Position numbers and translations under genes: made by a program. This document shows positions 17,566 through 27,540 of a stretch of DNA of 48,724 bases, piece by piece; positions within the stretch are counted from its first letter, which is position 1, and every line of letters begins with the position of its first letter. Origin of the DNA: Polyangiaceae bacterium (lineage in GTDB: Bacteria > Myxococcota_A > Polyangia > Nannocystales > Nannocystaceae). The stretch lies in NCBI GenBank assembly GCA_026989935.1, contig JALSIN010000374.1, forward strand, positions 1-48,724, written 5' to 3'. The notes beneath the pieces were generated by a model. The model was not told the origin of the DNA, searched no databases, and saw only the letters and a list, made by a program, of their open reading frames with translations.

Positions 17566-18573
17566 TTACTCGCCCGCGGCCTTCTTGCGCTGCTTCTTGA
17601 CCTGCTTGCGCAGCAGGAAGATGTTCTGCGCCGCACGCACGGTCACGTCGAGCTCGTGCACGACCTTCTTCATCTCACGCAGGAGTTTTCGCAGGTCCTT
17701 CGTGGCGGTCTCGAAGGAGCGCACGGAGCGGTCGAGGTTCACCATGGCCGTCTTGGCGGTCTGCATCACGTCGTCGGTGCGGCCGAAGGTGCGGTCGGCG
17801 GTCTCGATGGTGGCGCCGGCCTGGTCCGCCACCTTCCCGATCCGACCCATGAGGCGGTCGGCCGTACGCACGAGGGGCAGCGTGCGGTCGAGGGCCTTTT
17901 CGAGGTTCTGGAGCAGCCCGATGGCGCGCGTGTAGAGTTCGCCGTCGTCCGTCATCATGCGGCCGACGGTGTGGGTGGGGTCGCGCACCGTGGCCATCAG
18001 GGCGGCCGACTCGGTGATGAGGCGGCGAAGGCCCGTCTGCTCGTCGGCCAGGACCTCGGCCAGGTCCGCCAGGCCCGCCAGCAGTCGGCGCACGTCCGTG
18101 GCGGCCGGGTCGTCGCTGAACTCGGACAGCAGCCCGGCGAGGGTCAAGGGGGGGTCGGCGGGCAAGGTGGCCTCGTCTTCGAGGACCGCGCCCCCCGGCG
18201 GCCCGAGGTCGAGGGCCAGCGACGCCGTGCCCAGGAACGTGCCGATGGCCGGCGGCGTGTCGATGCGCACGCGGGTGCCCTCGCGGATCCGGTCGCGCAC
18301 GTCGCCGTCCACGTAGAACGACACGTCCACGTCGTCGTTGTCCGCAAGGGTCACGTCGTCCACCCGTCCTACGACGATCCCCTTCAGGCGCACGGGGGCG
18401 CCCGGGGAGAGCCCCTGGGCGTCCGGGACCACCACGTGGAACCGCGCCCGGCGGGTAAACGGCAGGTCGCCGCGGACCGCCATCCATCCCAGGGCGACCG
18501 CCACAACCACGGTGACGAGCAGGAAGACGCCCGCCCGACGCTCGAAGCGGGTGGGTTGGAGATCCTCGGTCAC
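17566..18573 (-). CDS. MCE/MlaD-family lipid-transport protein
   Basis: 335 residues: one membrane helix (about 14-33), then an MCE domain (about 43-122; FHVVVPDAQGLSPGAPVRLK, GIVVGRVDDV), then a long helical tail rich in coiled-coil-like segments and a very basic end (LLRKQVKKQRKKAAGE). MlaD-type proteins form hexameric periplasmic rings that carry lipids between the membranes. The GTG start overlaps the ATPase stop by 4 bases. Order on the minus strand is permease, ATPase, MCE protein. The tail is longer than in E. coli MlaD and may form a needle or bridge. Confidence 0.88.
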   Translation of the reverse strand: MTEDLQPTRFERRAGVFLLVTVVVAVALGWMAVRGDLPFTRRARFHVVVPDAQGLSPGAPVRLKGIVVGRVDDVTLADNDDVDVSFYVDGDVRDRIREGTRVRIDTPPAIGTFLGTASLALDLGPPGGAVLEDEATLPADPPLTLAGLLSEFSDDPAATDVRRLLAGLADLAEVLADEQTGLRRLITESAALMATVRDPTHTVGRMMTDDGELYTRAIGLLQNLEKALDRTLPLVRTADRLMGRIGKVADQAGATIETADRTFGRTDDVMQTAKTAMVNLDRSVRSFETATKDLRKLLREMKKVVHELDVTVRAAQNIFLLRKQVKKQRKKAAGE

Positions 18574-19274
18574 GGGGCGAAGTGCAGGGTGCGGGCGAGC
18601 AGGGGGGGCATCTTGTCCACGGGCCCATCGTAGAAGATCCGCCCACCGAAGAACAGCACGATCCGCGTGGCGAACATGCGGATGAAGTCCACGTCGTCGT
18701 CCGCGACGAGGCACGTGGTGCCGCGCTCGGGCAGGGTCTTGAGCAGGCGGGCGACCTTGCTGCGGCCCTGTGGGTCGAGCAGGGAGCTGGGGTCTTCGGA
18801 CAACAACAGGCGCGGTTCGAGGGCCACGGCGCGGGCATAGGCCAGGCGCTTTTGCAGGGCGGGCAAGGTCTTGCCGGCGCGCACGGTGGTCCACGGCAGA
18901 AGGCCCAGGTCGTCGAGGGCCCGTTCGACGCGGCGGGACAGCTCGGGCTCGGCGCGCACGCCGTGGTAGCGCAGCGGCAGCGCCACGTTCTGCGCGAAGT
19001 CGAGGTTCGCGACCACGCCGGCTTCGGCGGGGACGTAGCCGAAGTCCGTGCGAAGGGCGCAGCGCTCGGTCCGTTCCAGGGTCGCCAACTCCACCCCGAA
19101 CACCTCCACCGCACCGGCGTGGGGGGTGTCGAGGCCGGCGAGCGCGCGGACCAGGCGCGTGCCGAACGCCTGATCGGGGCAGACCAGGCCGACCGACTCT
19201 CCCGCCTCGACGGCCAGGTCCACCGGGGGCAGGTCCGGCTCGAGCTGCAGGGCACGCAGGGCGAGGAGGCTCAT
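18570..19274 (-). CDS. MlaF-like ABC protein with degenerate nucleotide-binding motifs (pseudo-ATPase)
   Basis: 234 residues with the overall layout of an MlaF/Ttg2A ATPase, including NVALPLRYHGV (compare NVALPLREH) and AYARAVALEPRLLL. Each functional motif is altered. The Walker A position reads CPDQAFGTRL instead of GxxGxGKST, with the lysine and glycines gone. The signature is LPALQ instead of LSGGx. Walker B is LLLSEDP, with Asp-Glu swapped and shifted. The D-loop is SSLLDP, and the H-loop histidine is replaced (VADDD). The reading frame is intact and coupled by ATGA overlaps at both ends, so it is maintained rather than decaying. It probably cannot hydrolyse ATP; it may be a structural partner or work with another ATPase encoded elsewhere. 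Confidence 0.85.
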   Translation of the reverse strand: MSLLALRALQLEPDLPPVDLAVEAGESVGLVCPDQAFGTRLVRALAGLDTPHAGAVEVFGVELATLERTERCALRTDFGYVPAEAGVVANLDFAQNVALPLRYHGVRAEPELSRRVERALDDLGLLPWTTVRAGKTLPALQKRLAYARAVALEPRLLLSEDPSSLLDPQGRSKVARLLKTLPERGTTCLVADDDVDFIRMFATRIVLFFGGRIFYDGPVDKMPPLLARTLHFAP

Positions 19275-20050
19275 GGCAGCAGGATGCTCAGCAACGCGCT
19301 CAGCAGCACGCAGGTGACGAGGGCCGACACCAGCGTGCGCGTGACGGCGGGGGGGATCCGCGTCAGGTCCCTCGGCACCGAAAGGCCCGCGCGGCACGAC
19401 AGGGCGGCCAGCACCAGCCCGAACACGAGGGCCTTGACCGCGGCGGACAGGAGGTCGGTGACTTCGAGGTGGGCGAGAAAGCTCCAGGCGGCGATGCGCG
19501 GGTCGTTTTCGATCCCCAGGAAGACCGCGGCCCCGATGCCACCGGCCTGCGCCGCGGCCAGGAACAGGGCGGCCAGGCCCAGGGCGGCCGTCACGAGCCC
19601 GACGAAGCGCGGCACCACCACCATCCGCACTGGGTCCACACCCAGGGCGCTCATGGCGTCGATCTCCCCGCGCGTGCGCATGTAACCCAGCTCCACCACG
19701 ATGGCGGGGCAGGAGCGTACGATGAGCACCAGGGCGGCCACCATCGGCGCGGCCTCGCGCGACAGGATGTGCACGGCGGCGCGCGTGACGGCCGATTGGT
19801 TCTGTGCGCCCGGAAAGAAGATCCCGAGGGAGCTCAGGAGGGCACCGCCGGTGGTCACGCCCAGGAACAGGACCAGCGGCACCGCGTAGGCGCCCGAGAA
19901 GACGATCTGCCGCGCGCTGTGCTCGCGGACGACGGGGTTGGCGATGCCGTAGCGCCCGGCGAGGCCGTGGGCGGCCATCGCGATCATGAGGATCGACGAC
20001 CAGCCCCCGCGCAGTGCGGACAGGAGGGATCGTCCGAAGGCGGGGGACAT
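19271..20050 (-). CDS. MlaE-family lipid ABC permease
   Basis: 259 residues with five to six hydrophobic segments. The family signature is clear: GYMRTRGEIDAMSALGVDPV, then RMVVVPRFVGLVT. This is the coupling helix of MlaE permeases (EIDAL..MGIDP). It moves lipids between the inner membrane and the MCE ring. First gene of the operon; its stop overlaps the ATPase start (ATGA). It diverges from the cysteine-rich gene with an 85-base gap. The N-terminus is slightly short compared with E. coli MlaE. Confidence 0.9.
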   Translation of the reverse strand: MSPAFGRSLLSALRGGWSSILMIAMAAHGLAGRYGIANPVVREHSARQIVFSGAYAVPLVLFLGVTTGGALLSSLGIFFPGAQNQSAVTRAAVHILSREAAPMVAALVLIVRSCPAIVVELGYMRTRGEIDAMSALGVDPVRMVVVPRFVGLVTAALGLAALFLAAAQAGGIGAAVFLGIENDPRIAAWSFLAHLEVTDLLSAAVKALVFGLVLAALSCRAGLSVPRDLTRIPPAVTRTLVSALVTCVLLSALLSILLP

Positions 20051-20135
20051 CGGCGGCCATGATAGACGCTCGGGGAGGCTGCGGCGAGGCGTTTAGCCGG
20101 TGTGCTGCGGCCGCCTGTGGCATGATGGGTGCGGC

Positions 20136-20804
20136 GTGACCCTACGCGATGCGATCGAACGGCTCGTGGACCTCCTCGAGGCCCACGAGGGCGCCGGCGA
20201 AGGCGACGCGGGGGCGGGTGCGGACAACTTCGAGTGCGAGGGTTGCACCGACTGCGTCGCATGTCGGTTCTGCGTGGCGTGTGTGGCGTGCGAGCGGTGC
20301 TCCTACTGCGAGGCGAGTGAGGGGCTCGTAGACTGCACGCACTGCCGCGCCAGCGTCGATTGCGAGGCGTGCAGCCACGTGGCGCACGGCCGCGCGCTGC
20401 GGGATTGCCGCTACGTGGTGCTTTGCTTCGATTGCGAGGGCTGCACGCACTGCTTCGGCTGCGTGGGCCTTCGGGACGCGGAGTTTTGCTTCTTGAACGA
20501 ACCACTGCCGCGCAAGGTCTACTTCGAGCGCGTGCGGGCGATGGAGGCGGCGCTTTCGCGCCTCGAGACGGCCGGGGTGCTTCTGGCGTTCGAAGACGAC
20601 CTGGACCGCTGGCTCGAACGGGTGGACGCCGCGACCCGCGGGCCCAGTGCGCCGGCGTCCCCGGACCCCGGGGGCGAGGCTGCGGTCTCGGACGAGGTGG
20701 CCTCCGTGGCGGCCGGGCGACCCAGGCACGGGAGCGTGCGCACGGTGCGACGGCCGGCGCGCCTTGACGCGGGCGGCGGCCGGGCGCAAAAGCCCGATCC
20801 ATGA
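20136..20804 (+). CDS. cysteine-rich CxxC-repeat protein
   Basis: 222 residues from the GTG at 20136. Twenty cysteines; nine of them (Cys34 to Cys58) fall exactly every third residue (CEGCTDCVACRFCVACVAC and onward). Further C-x2-C pairs follow, then a closing segment CFGCVGLRDAEFCFLNEPLP and RKVYFERV. The same ending (GLR..xC-x-LN-x-x-Y) occurs in poorly characterised Cys-repeat proteins in many bacteria, often mislabelled CaiB/BaiF. The repeat suggests a solenoid binding metal or iron-sulfur clusters; this is inference. The tail (about 160-222) is disordered and Pro/Gly/Ala-rich. The stop overlaps the proC start (ATGA), so the two proteins are made together. Alternative upstream starts in frame add only 12 residues. 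Confidence 0.75.
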   Translation: MTLRDAIERLVDLLEAHEGAGEGDAGAGADNFECEGCTDCVACRFCVACVACERCSYCEASEGLVDCTHCRASVDCEACSHVAHGRALRDCRYVVLCFDCEGCTHCFGCVGLRDAEFCFLNEPLPRKVYFERVRAMEAALSRLETAGVLLAFEDDLDRWLERVDAATRGPSAPASPDPGGEAAVSDEVASVAAGRPRHGSVRTVRRPARLDAGGGRAQKPDP

Positions 20805-21940: not shown

Positions 21941-22312
21941 TCAGATGTGGGCGCGGGTCGAGGGGGTGCCGAGCAGTCGGGCGGGGTGCGGTGGTCGCGG
22001 TAGGACGTGGACCCCCAGGCGGCGGGCGATGCGGGCCCCCGGGGCGCCGACCCGGGTGACGACGACGACGCGCCCCACGCCTCGGCGCAGGGCCTCGGCG
22101 GCCACCTCGAGGCCGCCACAGGGAGCGCGTGGGCCGAGGTCGAGCCGGGTTTCCACGACCGCGAAGGCGCCTCGGGCGACTGCGTCGAGGGCGGCGTCGA
22201 GGGCGGTCTGGCCTGCGGCGTCGATGCCGGCGCGGGCCAGACCCGAAAGGCGTGCGTCGAGGCGCGCCCCGTCGGGGTCCACCACGAGCGCCGTCAGCCG
22301 GCGACGTTGCAC
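21941..22312 (-). CDS. receiver-like (pseudo-response-regulator) small protein
   Basis: 123 residues from a GTG at 22312, overlapping the end of the FG-GAP lipoprotein gene by 19 bases. The sequence follows a response-regulator receiver fold: LTALVVDPDGARLDARL (first strand and acidic pocket), then FAVVETRLDLGP, where Glu54 sits at or near the phospho-Asp position, then GLEVAAEALRRG, the strand-plus-Thr VVVVT, and LGVHVLPRP where Lys is replaced by Arg. No output domain. It may be a phosphorylation-independent partner, or merely a receiver-like open frame. A shorter start at GTGGTGGAC is possible. Confidence 0.55.
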   Translation of the reverse strand: MQRRRLTALVVDPDGARLDARLSGLARAGIDAAGQTALDAALDAVARGAFAVVETRLDLGPRAPCGGLEVAAEALRRGVGRVVVVTRVGAPGARIARRLGVHVLPRPPHPARLLGTPSTRAHI

Positions 22313-24639
22313 TGGCCGGTGCCCTCGGCGACGTTGTTGTCGGTACGGCACTCCTTCCAGGGGTGCGGGGGCATGCCGTCGTCTACGACCACGAACACCG
22401 GCGTCGTGCCCTCCATTACGCCCGCCGGCGGGTTCGGAAGCGGCAGGTAGAGCTGCTCGGCCTCGGCGGAGTAGAGCTCCTTCGTGGTGGCGAGCGTGCC
22501 CAAGAGCGTCCCGCCCATCATGGGGTTGCCGGCGTAGAAGCCCACCGGCACGCCCGGGGGCACGGCGGCCTGGCCGATGTTGCGCACCGTTGCCACGAGG
22601 CCGTACTCGTCGTTGCCGCAGTACGGATCGATGGTGGCGACCAGGTCCGGGGCCGAGAACTCGCCGAGGGGCTGGACGTTCTGCCGGAAGTTGTTGAGGC
22701 GCGGTTGCGTCCAGTTCGGCGCCTCCACGGCCGGGATCGAGCCGTCCTCCTCGACGTTCGTGACGTGGTAGGGGTGCTGGTTCCAGATCCGGCGCGTGCG
22801 GACCCAACGGCCCTCCGCGTCGCCGAAGATCCGGACGCCGCGTTGCTTCGAGTTGTTCTCGGGGCAGACGAGGCTGGAATAGTCGTTCGAGACGGCCACG
22901 ATGTCGGCATGGCCGTCGTTGTCCACGTCGGCGACCACGGGCAGTTCCTGCAGCGTGCCGGTGGTGTTGCACGTCTGCCACAGCACGGTGCCGTCGGAGC
23001 CGCGGTAGATCCGCAAGTAGTGCTCGTCGGAGTAGACGACCTCGGCGCTGCCGTCCCCGTCGAAGTCGAACACGGCGCTGCCGGTCTGGGCGGACGAGCA
23101 GTCCTTCGTCTGTGTGATCCACAAGATCGTGTTCACGTTCGGGACGTTGGGATCCATGATCTTTACCCCATCGAAGACGGCATACCCGACGCCCCCGGCC
23201 ACCCCCAGGTCGGGGACGCCGTCGCCGTTGAAGTCGGCGATCGTCGGTGGGCCGCCGCCGTATGAGCTCCCGACGGATCCCGGGGGACAGAGGGCGGGCG
23301 ACAGCGGCCCATTGATGTCCACCCCCTGGCGCAGGATCTGGTAGCCCGCCGGCAGCGCCGGGGCCACCCGCCACACGTGGTAGCTATGCGTGGCGATGTC
23401 GATCACGGCGATCTCGGGATTCGTGTCCAGGTCGAAGTCGGCCACCGCGACCCAGTTGCCGATAAACGGCGTGGTCGTGACCTCCGTGCCGTCGGCCTCG
23501 TACACGGCCGTGGGCCCGACCACCTCGAGCACGCCGTCGGCGTCCACATCGGCGGCGACGGGGTTTACGAGGTTCGGCAAGGTCGCCTTCGTCGCGCCGG
23601 TGGGGCCGTCGAGGACGGCGGCCTTTACGAGGATCTCGGGTGTGCCGTCCTGGTCGAAGTCGGCGATGGACGGCATGAAGCACCCGCCGGCGTAGCTCGA
23701 CACCCACAGGGCCGTGCCGTCGGCGTCGAACGCGCGCACCTTGCCCGTGTCGGTGCACGTGACGATCTCGTTGCCGCCGTCGCCGTCGATGTCACCGGCG
23801 GCGATCGACCGGCCCGGCCAGATGGCGTCCGTGGCCGGGGTCACCTGCCACTTGTGGACCACTGCGCCGTCCACGATGGAGATCGCGTGCAAGGTGCCGT
23901 CGTTGTTGTAGGCCGACCCGGCGAAGGTCGAAAAGACGATCTCCGGGATGTCCTTTTCGTCCACGACCCCGTCGCAGTTGTCGTCGTCGAGCTGGATCAC
24001 GACCGGCGCCATCATGACGTTGCCGTCCGTCCAGGCGAACTTCAGCTCGGGCTCGAACGACGGTGGCGGCACGTACTCGCACTTGGCGATGCACGTGGGC
24101 GGGTCGCCCGGGTCCTGGCCGTCGGGGCACTCGGGCGGCTTGGGCAGGCACTTGCCCGTCTTGAACTCCGCCCCGCCCATGCACGCGCCGCCGGTGCCGC
24201 CGGTGCCGCCGCCGCCGGGATCCTCTCCCAGGGCGTACTCGCAGTATTCGTCCTCGGCGCACTCACTGGCGTCGATGCAGTCCTGGCCGGGTGTGACGCA
24301 GGATCCGAAGGAGCACACGTCGCCCGCGTCGCAGCACACGTCTCCGCACGCCAGGTCCGCGTCGCAGCACACGTCGCCGGTGCACACCCCGTCGCAGGTG
24401 TCGGGGTCGCAGGCCGGGCCGGTGGTGTCCGTCGTCGGGCCCGCGCTGGCCGAGTCGGAGCCGGCGGTGGTCCCGGTCCCCGTCGCCGACGTCGAGCCCG
24501 TGGTGGCGCCCAGCGAGGTGGCGCTTTCGCTGCTTGCGGCCGTTTCGCGCCCCCCGCCGCCGCTGCAGGCGACCGCGCCGAGGAGGGTCCAGGAGAGCCA
24601 CGGGGTCCGCTGGAGGTTCATTTTCTTCTGTGAGTCCAT
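22294..24639 (-). CDS. large FG-GAP/VCBS-repeat lipoprotein with Cys-rich and CARDB-like parts
   Basis: 781 residues from the ATG at 24639 (MDSQKKMNLQRTPWLSW; a second ATG lies 6 codons on). The signal ends in a lipobox-like GAVAC with Cys25. Then come a Gly/Ser/Thr linker, a Cys-rich segment (repeats of CDGVCTGDVCC type), and several FG-GAP calcium-binding repeats (VVIQLDDDNCDGVVDEKD, AAGDIDGDGGNEIV, PSIADFDQDGTPEIL, DFDGDGSAEVV, VADVDNDGHADIV). The last roughly 120 residues (DLVATIDPYCGNDEYGLVAT) resemble a CARDB adhesion-like domain. Probably a surface-exposed calcium-binding lipoprotein. A ribosome site (GGAAGGG) lies about 10 bases upstream. Confidence 0.85.
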   Translation of the reverse strand: MDSQKKMNLQRTPWLSWTLLGAVACSGGGGRETAASSESATSLGATTGSTSATGTGTTAGSDSASAGPTTDTTGPACDPDTCDGVCTGDVCCDADLACGDVCCDAGDVCSFGSCVTPGQDCIDASECAEDEYCEYALGEDPGGGGTGGTGGACMGGAEFKTGKCLPKPPECPDGQDPGDPPTCIAKCEYVPPPSFEPELKFAWTDGNVMMAPVVIQLDDDNCDGVVDEKDIPEIVFSTFAGSAYNNDGTLHAISIVDGAVVHKWQVTPATDAIWPGRSIAAGDIDGDGGNEIVTCTDTGKVRAFDADGTALWVSSYAGGCFMPSIADFDQDGTPEILVKAAVLDGPTGATKATLPNLVNPVAADVDADGVLEVVGPTAVYEADGTEVTTTPFIGNWVAVADFDLDTNPEIAVIDIATHSYHVWRVAPALPAGYQILRQGVDINGPLSPALCPPGSVGSSYGGGPPTIADFNGDGVPDLGVAGGVGYAVFDGVKIMDPNVPNVNTILWITQTKDCSSAQTGSAVFDFDGDGSAEVVYSDEHYLRIYRGSDGTVLWQTCNTTGTLQELPVVADVDNDGHADIVAVSNDYSSLVCPENNSKQRGVRIFGDAEGRWVRTRRIWNQHPYHVTNVEEDGSIPAVEAPNWTQPRLNNFRQNVQPLGEFSAPDLVATIDPYCGNDEYGLVATVRNIGQAAVPPGVPVGFYAGNPMMGGTLLGTLATTKELYSAEAEQLYLPLPNPPAGVMEGTTPVFVVVDDGMPPHPWKECRTDNNVAEGTGQCNVAG

Positions 24640-24754
24640 GGTGGCGTCCCTTCCGTACCGTCGTTTTAGCACGCCGGCGACCCCCGGTGGGCCGTGCGTT
24701 TTTTTCGTCTGCACCGGCGGACCGTGGTAGGCGCAAGGGGGAAGGACGCGCCCC

Positions 24755-25504
24755 ATGCCGATCCTCGAATTCTCGGACGTCACGAAGACCTACGGTCGGC
24801 CCGGCAAGGTGCCCCCGGCCCTCGACGGCATCTCGTTCGCCATCGACGCGGGCGAGCTCGTCCTGCTGGTGGGACCGTCGGGGGCCGGCAAGTCCACGCT
24901 GATCCGTCTCGTCTTGGCCGCCGAGCGCCCCGAGCGGGGTGTGATCCGCGTGGCGGGCCGGGACATCTCGCGCCTTCGGCGGGGATCGATCCCCTATCTT
25001 CGGCGCAACGTCGGTGTGGTCTTTCAGGACTTCAAGCTGCTGCCGGAGGCGAGTGCCCGCGAGAACGTGGAACTTGCCTTGCAGGCGCTCGGGTGGCCGC
25101 GGCCCGTGGTGCGCGAGCGCGCGGCGTGGGCGCTTGCGAGCGTGGAGATGGCGGATCTCGCCGGGAAGCCGGTCTGCCGTCTGTCGGGCGGCGAGCAGCA
25201 GCGGGTGGCCGTCGCGCGGGCGATCGCCGCCGCACCGCCGATCCTCCTGGCGGATGAGCCCACCGGGAACCTCGATCCGCACCTTACGACCGAGCTGCTC
25301 GGGCTGCTCGGGAAGATCGCGGCGGCCGGTACGACGGTCGTGGTCGCCACCCACGACCCGGCCGTGGTCCAGGCGCTCGCTCCGGCGCGGGTTCTGCGAC
25401 TCGAAGGGGGGCGGCTCGTGGCCGACCGACCGGATGCCCGCGGCCCCTGGGTCCTCGACGGCGGCGTGCCGGCGCCCGTCCCCACTGCGGAGGCCGTGGC
25501 ATGA
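24755..25504 (+). CDS. ftsE: cell-division ABC ATPase FtsE
   Basis: 249 residues. Walker A GPSGAGKSTLIRLVL, Q-loop VGVVFQDFKLLPE (highly characteristic of FtsE), signature LSGGEQQRVAVARAIA, Walker B ILLADEPTGNLDP, H-loop VVATHD. All catalytic residues are present, in contrast with the MCE-operon ATPase. With FtsX it forms the complex that activates septal murein hydrolases. The stop overlaps the ftsX start (ATGA). Ribosome site AAGGA about 12 bases upstream; it diverges from the FG-GAP lipoprotein gene. The extended C-terminal tail (VPAPVPTAEAVA) is nonessential-looking. Confidence 0.94.
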   Translation: MPILEFSDVTKTYGRPGKVPPALDGISFAIDAGELVLLVGPSGAGKSTLIRLVLAAERPERGVIRVAGRDISRLRRGSIPYLRRNVGVVFQDFKLLPEASARENVELALQALGWPRPVVRERAAWALASVEMADLAGKPVCRLSGGEQQRVAVARAIAAAPPILLADEPTGNLDPHLTTELLGLLGKIAAAGTTVVVATHDPAVVQALAPARVLRLEGGRLVADRPDARGPWVLDGGVPAPVPTAEAVA

Positions 25505-26418
25505 CCTTCGAGGTACGGCCCAGCCGCCTGGCCTCCCTCGGGTACGTGGTGGCCCGGGGCTTTCGTGGCATGGTGCAAAGCGCCCACGTCCAGATCCTTG
25601 CGGTGGGTACCATGGCCGTGTGCATGCTCCTGCTGGGCGCGGTGACCCTCGCCTGGCAAAACGCGCGGGCCGTCTCACGCGACCTGGGCGTGGACGTGCC
25701 GGTGACCGTGTACCTGGCCGATGACGCGCCCGACGGGGCGGTGCGGGATCTGGCCGCGGCGGTCGAGGCGCTTTCGGCCGTGGATCGCGTGGTGCGGGTG
25801 CGGCCCGAGGACGCACTGGATCGCCTGGTGCACGGGCTTTCGGGCGAGGCCGAGTTGCTCGAAGGGATCGACCCGGACACGCTGCCGCAGACGCTCGAGA
25901 TCTACCTGGCCGACGGGGTGCCCGCTCGGGTCGCGCCGCATCTGGCGGCCCGATTGAGCGGCCACGAGCTGGTCGAGGACGTGGAGGTGGCGGGACCATG
26001 GGCCGAGCGCGCCGAGGCCATGGTCGAGACGCTCCAGCGGCTCGCCGTGGGTGCGGGCGCGCTGGTGGTGCTGGCGTGCGCGACGATCGTCTGGAGCACG
26101 ATTCGGCTGGGCGTGTTCGCCCGGCGGGCGGAGGTTCACATCCTGCGCCTGGTCGGGGGCACGCACGCCTTCGTGCGCGGCCCCTTCGTGGTGGAGGGGA
26201 TCGTGCAGGCCACGGTGGCGGTCGCCGTGGCGCTCGTGGTCCTGCACGCCGCCTTCGACATGGTGCGGCCGTACCTCGAAGACGGGCTGTCGCTCGTGTT
26301 CGCGGCCGGGGCGCTGCGGTTCTTTTCCCCCGAGGAGATGGCCTTCGGGTTGGGGCTCGGGGCCGTCGTGGGCTACCTCGGGTCGCGCGCCGCGGTGGCG
26401 CGGTACGTGGAGGTGTAG
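25501..26418 (+). CDS. ftsX: cell-division protein FtsX
   Basis: 305 residues. Membrane partner of FtsE: N-terminal cytoplasmic stretch, helix 1 at about 30-52, a periplasmic domain (about 60-180; SRDLGVDVPVTVYLADD, the classic FtsX FSX region), then three helices at about 185-205, 232-252 and 282-300. LRLVGGTHAFVRGPFVVEG is the family's conserved cytoplasmic loop. It passes the FtsE ATP cycle across the membrane to a murein-hydrolase activator, here probably the next gene. Three bases separate its stop from the following GTG. Confidence 0.93.
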   Translation: MTFEVRPSRLASLGYVVARGFRGMVQSAHVQILAVGTMAVCMLLLGAVTLAWQNARAVSRDLGVDVPVTVYLADDAPDGAVRDLAAAVEALSAVDRVVRVRPEDALDRLVHGLSGEAELLEGIDPDTLPQTLEIYLADGVPARVAPHLAARLSGHELVEDVEVAGPWAERAEAMVETLQRLAVGAGALVVLACATIVWSTIRLGVFARRAEVHILRLVGGTHAFVRGPFVVEGIVQATVAVAVALVVLHAAFDMVRPYLEDGLSLVFAAGALRFFSPEEMAFGLGLGAVVGYLGSRAAVARYVEV

Positions 26419-26421
26419 CCG

Positions 26422-27540
26422 GTGTCGCGCGAGCCGTGGAGGCGTCGGGCGGTGCGCTGGGTCGCTGCGCTGGCGCTGTTGGGGCCGGCGGCGGCGTGGG
26501 CCGGGCCGACCGGGCACGAGGTGGCCGCGGCGCGGCGGGCGACGGCCGCCCTACGCGGGCTTGCGGCCTTGGAGCGAGGGGGCGTCCAGTTGGGCGAGGC
26601 AGGCCGGAGCCTCGCGTACGCCCGTTCCGTTCTCGCGTACGAAAGGTCCGAAAGTGTCCGAAAACTGTCGGCATACGAGGTGCGTCGGTTGGCGCGGCGC
26701 CAGTCGGCACGGCGGCGCGGGCGGGCGCTTTACAAGCTGTCGCGCGGCGGGGTGCTGCGGGTGCTGTTCGACGAGGACCGGGCCGACACGAGCGCTCGGA
26801 TCACGAAGGCGCGGACGGTGCGGGCGCTCGTACGGCACGACCTGGCGGAACTCGCCGTCTATCGCGCGGCCGAGCGCCGCGCCGGGGCGGCCCTGGCGGC
26901 CTCGGTCCGGACGAGCCAGGCGCTGTCGGCGCTGGCCACCTTCGCCGACCTCCAGGCCGATCTGGTCGAAGGGGGCCGGGAAGGGCTCGCGCGTGCCGCG
27001 GCCGAGGCGGAAACGGCGGTGCGCCGGGCCGCCGCTCGGGGCGCACGCCTGCCGCCGGGGCTTCGCCGCTCCCTCGCCCGTGAACGCCGCTCCCTGCGTC
27101 GGGCCCGTCGTTCCCTGCTGCGGCCCCGGGGGCTCGTGCGCCCGGTTCGGGGGCGTGTGGTCGGCCGCTTCGGGCCCTACCGCGACAAGGTGCTGCGCGT
27201 CGAGGCGGAGCGCGCCGGGATCGAACTCGCCGCCCGTCCGGGCGAGGTCGTCCGCGCGGTGGCGGCGGGCAAGGTGGTGTTCACCGGGGAGATCCCCGGC
27301 TTCGGGCTGGTCGCGGTCATCGATCACGGCGATGGGTTCTTGAGCGTCACGGGGCGGCTGATGGGGCTTGTGGTGGCCCCCGAGGCGCAGGTGGCGGCTG
27401 GAGGTCCCCTGGGCCGGGCGGCGCCGAAGACCGAGGACGACGGTCTGGGCACCACCGTCTACCTGGAGCTGCGCCATGGCACGCGGCCCATCGACCCGGC
27501 GCCGCTGCTGGCCCGTCGTCGTCGGCGCGCAGCGGGTTAG
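26422..27540 (+). CDS. EnvC-like murein hydrolase activator with degenerate LytM domain
   Basis: 372 residues, GTG start. A signal peptide (about 1-27, ending AAAWAG) leads into a long, very Arg/Ala-rich helical region (30-235), the expected FtsX-binding coiled coil. The LytM/M23-like domain (about 240-365) keeps the fold landmarks (VVGRFGPYRDKVL, AAGKVVFTGEIPGFGLVAVI, DHGDGFLSVT). It has lost the zinc ligands: the usual H-x3-D is replaced around AGIELAARPGE, and the HxH becomes VYLELR. This matches EnvC, an inactive LytM protein that switches on amidases. Its place after ftsEX is the main support. No amidase gene lies in the window. Confidence 0.85.
   Translation: MSREPWRRRAVRWVAALALLGPAAAWAGPTGHEVAAARRATAALRGLAALERGGVQLGEAGRSLAYARSVLAYERSESVRKLSAYEVRRLARRQSARRRGRALYKLSRGGVLRVLFDEDRADTSARITKARTVRALVRHDLAELAVYRAAERRAGAALAASVRTSQALSALATFADLQADLVEGGREGLARAAAEAETAVRRAAARGARLPPGLRRSLARERRSLRRARRSLLRPRGLVRPVRGRVVGRFGPYRDKVLRVEAERAGIELAARPGEVVRAVAAGKVVFTGEIPGFGLVAVIDHGDGFLSVTGRLMGLVVAPEAQVAAGGPLGRAAPKTEDDGLGTTVYLELRHGTRPIDPAPLLARRRRRAAG

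Follow-up and report, generated by a model that had tools for sequence, protein, structure and literature searches.

The window analysed here, a stretch of 48,724 nucleotides from a Polyangiaceae bacterium (contig JALSIN010000374.1 of assembly GCA_026989935.1; G000 in our genome comparisons), carries a three-gene Mla-type operon, MlaE, pseudo-MlaF and MCE in that order, lying wholly on the minus strand. By its residues, the product of the middle gene is an ATP-binding cassette (ABC) fold that has lost every catalytic feature of an ABC ATPase, and MlaF-like pseudo-ATPase is therefore its proper name. The loss is found at different stages in related operons across Myxococcota, so that this part of a familiar transporter family probably carries lipids with no help from the motor it normally uses.

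The reading frame of pseudo-MlaF is intact and is coupled on both sides by 4-bp overlaps, ATGA (19271-19274) between the MlaE stop and the pseudo-MlaF start, and GTGA (18570-18573) between the pseudo-MlaF stop and the GTG start of the MCE gene. An earlier note on this DNA had described the frame and the coupling correctly. Its coordinates for the gene also held. The open reading frame, of 234 residues, is real but lies on the minus strand, and the plus-strand reading of 18570-19274 is not the pseudo-MlaF gene. The permease matched the Pfam family MlaE (PF02405) with 129.4 bits against a cut-off of 22.5, and the MCE protein matched PF02470 with 51.1 bits against a cut-off of 25.1. The operon as a whole is homologous to an MlaEFD system and would work like one. 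The MCE protein has an N-terminal transmembrane helix, a single MCE domain and a C-terminal half that is mostly helical in a low-confidence AlphaFold2 (AF2) model (predicted local distance difference test score, pLDDT, 58.6), which was built from a 7-row alignment and is too weak for judging a bridge.

Each catalytic motif of pseudo-MlaF is altered. The Walker A consensus GxxGxGK[ST] gives way to CPDQAFGT, the LSGG signature to TLPALQKR, the Walker B Asp-Glu pair to Glu-Asp in LLLSEDP, and the H-loop His to Asp in VADDD; the four losses agree with the earlier note. The Q-loop Gln is lost as well (VPAEA, residues 81-85), a change that the note did not mention. Stretches of MlaF backbone, NVALPLRY (residues 96-103) and AYARAVALEP (residues 145-154), are kept, again in agreement with the first reading.

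Among 39 relatives, pseudo-MlaF has an orthologue in a genome of the same genus (G001, 88% identical) and in five further genomes from the same family (G005, G009, G011, G017 and G019; 36-41% identical over the full alignment). With the window this makes seven genomes, and in all of them the gene sits after MlaE and before the MCE gene. The Walker A Lys, the Ser-Gly-Gly of the signature and the H-loop His are absent in 7/7 proteins, Walker B reads ED and the H-loop position is Asp in 7/7, and several replacements are invariant: Gln35, Lys142 (after the signature), Glu160-Asp161-Pro162 and Asp192-194. Between the window's genome and G001, the Nei-Gojobori ratio of nonsynonymous to synonymous substitution rates (dN/dS) was 0.130 in the pseudo-ATPase gene, against 0.166 in MlaE and 0.262 in the MCE gene. 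Pseudo-MlaF is under purifying selection and is not a decaying gene. The selected pseudo-ATPase proposed in the earlier note is borne out by the common pattern of loss and the low dN/dS. The two findings that the note held would overturn it, normal Walker motifs in close orthologues and a sequencing artefact, did not materialise, since all seven independent assemblies agree on the missing motifs.

AF2 modelled pseudo-MlaF with a pLDDT of 93.2 and a predicted template modelling score (pTM) of 0.90 from a 31-row alignment. A Foldseek search of the PDB with this model returned ABC nucleotide-binding domains (NBDs) throughout, and E. coli MlaF (6xbd_I) matched with a query-normalised TM-score of 0.90 at 23% identity. 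The NBD fold is thus predicted to be retained although the catalytic chemistry has been lost, consistent with the earlier suggestion that the damage spares the fold.

That the window's operon belongs, as a single branch, to a broader series in Myxococcota was not seen in the earlier note. The nearest permease relatives in other genomes adjoin other degenerate ATPases. Beginning from permeases resembling the window's MlaE, we searched 318 genomes from the class with permease profiles, along with 379 sampled evenly across the phylum. In the phylum set, 32/379 genomes, from at least two classes, matched at E 1e-55 or better. An early impression that compromised systems were restricted to the window's family was overturned by these profiles, which showed a wider spread. 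All eight catalytic positions were intact in 33/33 canonical systems and in 0/63 others. An adjoining ATPase was found for 63 of the 64 non-canonical permeases and was compromised in every case, in some only partly; permease matches with no adjacent ATPase (L183/L228 in G538, L190/L229 in G526 and L243 in G118) were left unscored.

The extent of loss varies among families. Motif loss is complete in the window's family (f1, 7 genomes) and in f8 (11 genomes), which has its own conserved replacements (MDGATRWRACLARA, LVLEGxGDWEMD) and a mean column identity of 61%. Family f26, from a different class, has 11 f8-like permeases, the adjacent ATPase being seen for 10, plus 5 systems with partial loss. 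In f11, 23 genomes have an intact Walker A; the catalytic Glu is Asp in 23/23, and the same systems have lost the second signature residue (Gly) and the H-loop His. Four further f11 systems retain Walker A and the DE pair and have lost the signature. In another genome of the Nannocystaceae group, G014, the degradation follows a pattern of its own; G480 and G200 are odd cases. The degenerate ATPase of G200 (L217) lies on the opposite strand from the permease, and the pairing is unsure.

We built a tree from the 97 permeases (33 canonical and 64 others) instead of the ATPases, whose decay would bring long-branch effects. A single branch with 100/100 support separates the 33 canonical permeases from the 64 others, and this split kept a Shimodaira-Hasegawa-like approximate likelihood ratio test (SH-aLRT) value of 99 after the coupling-helix and loop columns were removed. 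By its position in the tree, the window's operon belongs to a Myxococcota permease clade whose every found adjacent ATPase is compromised. As the tree is unrooted, the canonical state was taken as ancestral by assumption, as for ABC proteins generally, and some branches are long; complete loss against the rest requires at least three changes. The full pseudo-ATPase systems of f26 (L240-L255) nest within f8 (L153, L172-L181) despite belonging to another class, which suggests horizontal transfer of such systems between classes. A broader history, to which we give about even chances, is that a Myxococcota-wide MCE permease subfamily abandoned ATP, its MlaF decaying on at least three occasions via ATP-binding-only intermediates to fully dead NBDs, and that its complexes are now motor-free lipid bridges or gradient-driven transporters.

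The permease has changed in parallel. In E. coli, the coupling-helix residue E127 of MlaE contacts R52 of MlaF (PMC7784689), and in mycobacteria MceG is proposed to bind at the EExDA motif (PMC9947336). The window's MlaE reads RGEIDA in place of E(E/Q)xDA, with Gly for the first acidic residue. This acidic residue is present in 32/33 canonical permeases against 7/64 others (Fisher p 1e-17, the rows being related and the value not a test of independent events). A loop Gly is kept in 0/64 non-canonical permeases and is Pro in 62/64, and Asn, His or Ser mostly replaces the Asp at the D250 position, a loss that accompanies that of the coupling residue. Arg98, Glu99 and Lys206, which correspond to the buried charges R97, E98 and K205 of E. 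coli MlaE, are 98-100% conserved in the same permeases. Because the coupling-helix acid, the loop Gly and the D250-position Asp are lost together, the permease appears to be adapted to a changed NBD, not merely awaiting a canonical one.

From the sequences, we think it fairly likely that these operons represent a Myxococcota MlaEFD subfamily with a selected pseudo-ATPase, acting as an ATP-independent lipid conduit in which the NBD serves as a scaffold. MlaE, pseudo-MlaF and the MCE protein would form a minimal lipid-transport complex whose MlaF subunit has turned into a selected pseudo-ATPase. The pseudo-NBD would still dock beneath the permease as a structural base or plug, while the permease, the MCE ring and the helical extension would provide the conduit, downhill or passively gated, between the inner membrane and the periplasm or outer membrane. 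ATP-driven transport would be left to a second, separate and canonical MlaE-MlaF-MCE set, which lies on contig C227 of the same genome. Published work describes minimal mlaEFD operons whose long helical MlaD spans the envelope as a bridge (PMC10665443). The passive nature of transport, which we infer, is plausible because spontaneous, ATP-less lipid transfer from MlaD to MlaC has been reported, ATP hydrolysis being said to prevent it (PMC10212509). Other observations weigh against a passive conduit. In M. tuberculosis, Mce1/Mce4 are not stabilised when MceG carries Walker B mutations (PMC9947336), indicating that catalysis is needed for stability in a related system. In addition, the low-confidence MCE model shows no domain that would anchor it in the outer membrane, and sequence cannot separate passive from gradient-driven transport.

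The earlier note had offered two mechanisms, an ATPase from elsewhere and working without ATP, and the second fits the sequence evidence better. A canonical, MceG-like ATPase powering the permease in trans, with pseudo-MlaF as a regulatory or placeholder subunit, is in our view unlikely. MceG does drive several Mce operons in trans (PMC9947336), and canonical MlaF-like ATPases are encoded in the window's genome both at C227, beside an MlaE, and at C332. The latter is an orphan with intact motifs (L295, 3750-5545, minus strand), directly after an acyltransferase-like gene on a 13-kb contig bearing no MlaE, and is possibly lipid-related or MceG-like. However, it does not track the pseudo-system: in G001 (94% complete) and G005 (71%) the pseudo-system is accompanied only by the MlaE-linked ATPase, whereas an orphan-type second ATPase match occurs in several members of the family that have no pseudo-ATPase. 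Among the orphan MlaF-like genes searched, no dedicated canonical ATPase co-occurring with the pseudo-system was found, within the limits set by incomplete metagenome-assembled genomes. Moreover, the permease acid of the E127-R52 contact and the proposed MceG site is what the non-canonical permeases have mostly lost, and slower evolution than that of the permease, as seen between G000 and G001, is not what one would expect of a bystander pseudo-MlaF.

Somewhat less likely still is a permease driven by an ion gradient, with the pseudo-NBD as a scaffold. The conserved Arg98, Glu99 and Lys206, set beside the mostly replaced Asp at the D250 position, could be taken in its favor, but ATP-driven MlaE conserves these charges too, mutating them to alanine in E. 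coli gave no phenotype (PMC7790496), and a dedicated gradient-coupling subunit was not seen in the operon. We give little credence to a heterodimer of pseudo-MlaF and canonical MlaF with one working site. ABC sites are composite, each pairing the signature of one NBD with the Walker A/B, Q and H motifs of its partner (PMC7756269); pseudo-MlaF lacks both halves, so both heterodimer sites would be incomplete, and the single permease gene suggests a symmetric MlaE dimer. A decaying pseudogene or a sequencing or assembly artefact, for which nothing speaks beyond the missing motifs, was rejected as scarcely credible given the intact, translationally coupled frame, the dN/dS of 0.13, the orthologues in independent assemblies and their invariant replacements. 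With the orphan ATPase untied to the pseudo-system and the heterodimer sites incomplete, we prefer the ATP-independent conduit to a trans-acting ATPase or gradient drive.

The operon shares features with several known systems. With MlaFEDB, the phospholipid ABC transporter of E. coli, P. aeruginosa and A. baumannii, it has in common the MlaE-type permease, the MlaF fold, the MCE protein and the operon logic. It differs in that pseudo-MlaF keeps no catalytic MlaF residue, the permease has lost its coupling-helix acid, the three-gene operon has no MlaB or MlaC gene, and the MCE protein has 335 residues against 183 in E. coli. The minimal MlaEFD of Veillonella parvula (PMC10665443) has the same mlaE-mlaF-mlaD order, overlapping genes and long helical MlaD extension; its MlaF, unlike the window's, closely resembles that of model diderms, and its MlaD ends in a beta-barrel, which was not seen in the window's MCE protein. 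Mycobacterial Mce1/Mce4 (PMC9947336) likewise combine an Mtu_fam_mce-type MCE protein with MlaE-like (YrbE) permeases and are a precedent for an ATPase encoded outside the operon, but MceG is canonical, whereas the window's operon retains an NBD of its own that is dead. ABC transporters with one degenerate site (TAP, CFTR, ABCC) have also lost catalytic motifs in a folded NBD. These retain one working site and usually ATP binding, while the single NBD gene of this operon retains neither half of the composite site.

It is debated whether MCE/Mla complexes depend on ATP and in which direction lipids would then flow (PMC10212509). The Myxococcota operons offer a natural experiment, as the motor is lost completely and repeatedly, lost in part, or intact, often within one genome, and they permit a direct test of the role of the NBD apart from hydrolysis. 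They also set an annotation trap, since such pseudo-ATPases pass Pfam ABC_tran and would be labelled ATPases. Searches of the open-access literature, which took in neither subscription journals nor bioRxiv, turned up no previous account of an MCE system with a pseudo-ATPase, and a precedent could exist.

Table 1. Coordinates of the operon's genes and motifs in the window.
Feature	Position	Strand	Basis
MlaE-family permease (P0003), 259 aa	19271..20050	-	Pfam MlaE PF02405 E 1.9e-37; NCBIfam TIGR00056 E 3.3e-27
Permease coupling-helix region, residues 120-148, ELGYMRTRGEIDAMSALGVDPVRMVVVPR	19607..19693	-	alignment with other permeases; equivalent of E. coli MlaE E127 is Gly128
Pseudo-MlaF (P0002), MlaF-like nucleotide-binding domain, catalytic motifs absent, 234 aa	18570..19274	-	Pfam ABC_tran PF00005 35.7 bits, over cut-off
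Degenerate Walker A, CPDQAFGT, residues 32-39, Lys lost; Gln35 invariant in 7 orthologues	19158..19181	-	sequence and alignment
Degenerate Q-loop, VPAEA, residues 81-85, Gln lost	19020..19034	-	sequence and alignment
Degenerate ABC signature, LPALQKR (within TLPALQKR), no SGG	18846..18866	-	sequence and alignment
Altered Walker B, LLLSEDP, residues 156-162, DE swapped to ED; invariant in 7 orthologues	18789..18809	-	sequence and alignment
H-loop without His, VADDD, residues 190-194; DDD invariant in 7 orthologues	18693..18707	-	sequence and alignment
MCE (MlaD-like) protein (P0004), 335 aa, GTG start	17566..18573	-	Pfam MlaD PF02470 E 1.6e-13; NCBIfam TIGR00996 E 1.7e-23
MCE domain of the MCE protein	18244..18444	-	Pfam and sequence

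Further observations concern the compared genomes. Near the unscored permeases L183/L228 and L190/L229, which belong to the compromised clade, no ATPase was recognised within about 1.5-2.5 kb, and the NBD gene has possibly been lost entirely. The MlaF-like ATPases of loci L010, L011, L044, L046 and L047 have intact Walker A, signature and Walker B motifs with Ser replacing the H-loop His (SSD), and L044, L046 and L047 also carry two MlaE genes. The window's genome encodes a further MCE protein (L296, G000:C135 4708-7074, minus strand) with at least two MCE-like stretches and not beside MlaE, possibly part of a PqiB/LetB-like system.

The genes flanking the three-gene operon are unrelated and lie outside it. 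A GMC-type oxidoreductase gene, named from its sequence, converges on the operon from below. On the other side, a gene for a Cys-rich protein with many CxxC-like repeats and no Pfam match (20100-20804, plus strand) diverges from it. Further along are an 829-residue protein that bears FG-GAP repeats and is rich in Cys in its N-terminal part (22294-24783, minus strand) and, in a row at 24755-27540 on the plus strand, FtsE-like, FtsX-like and EnvC/M23-like genes followed by a CtpA-like protease, also named from sequence. The motifs of the FtsE-like gene are normal.
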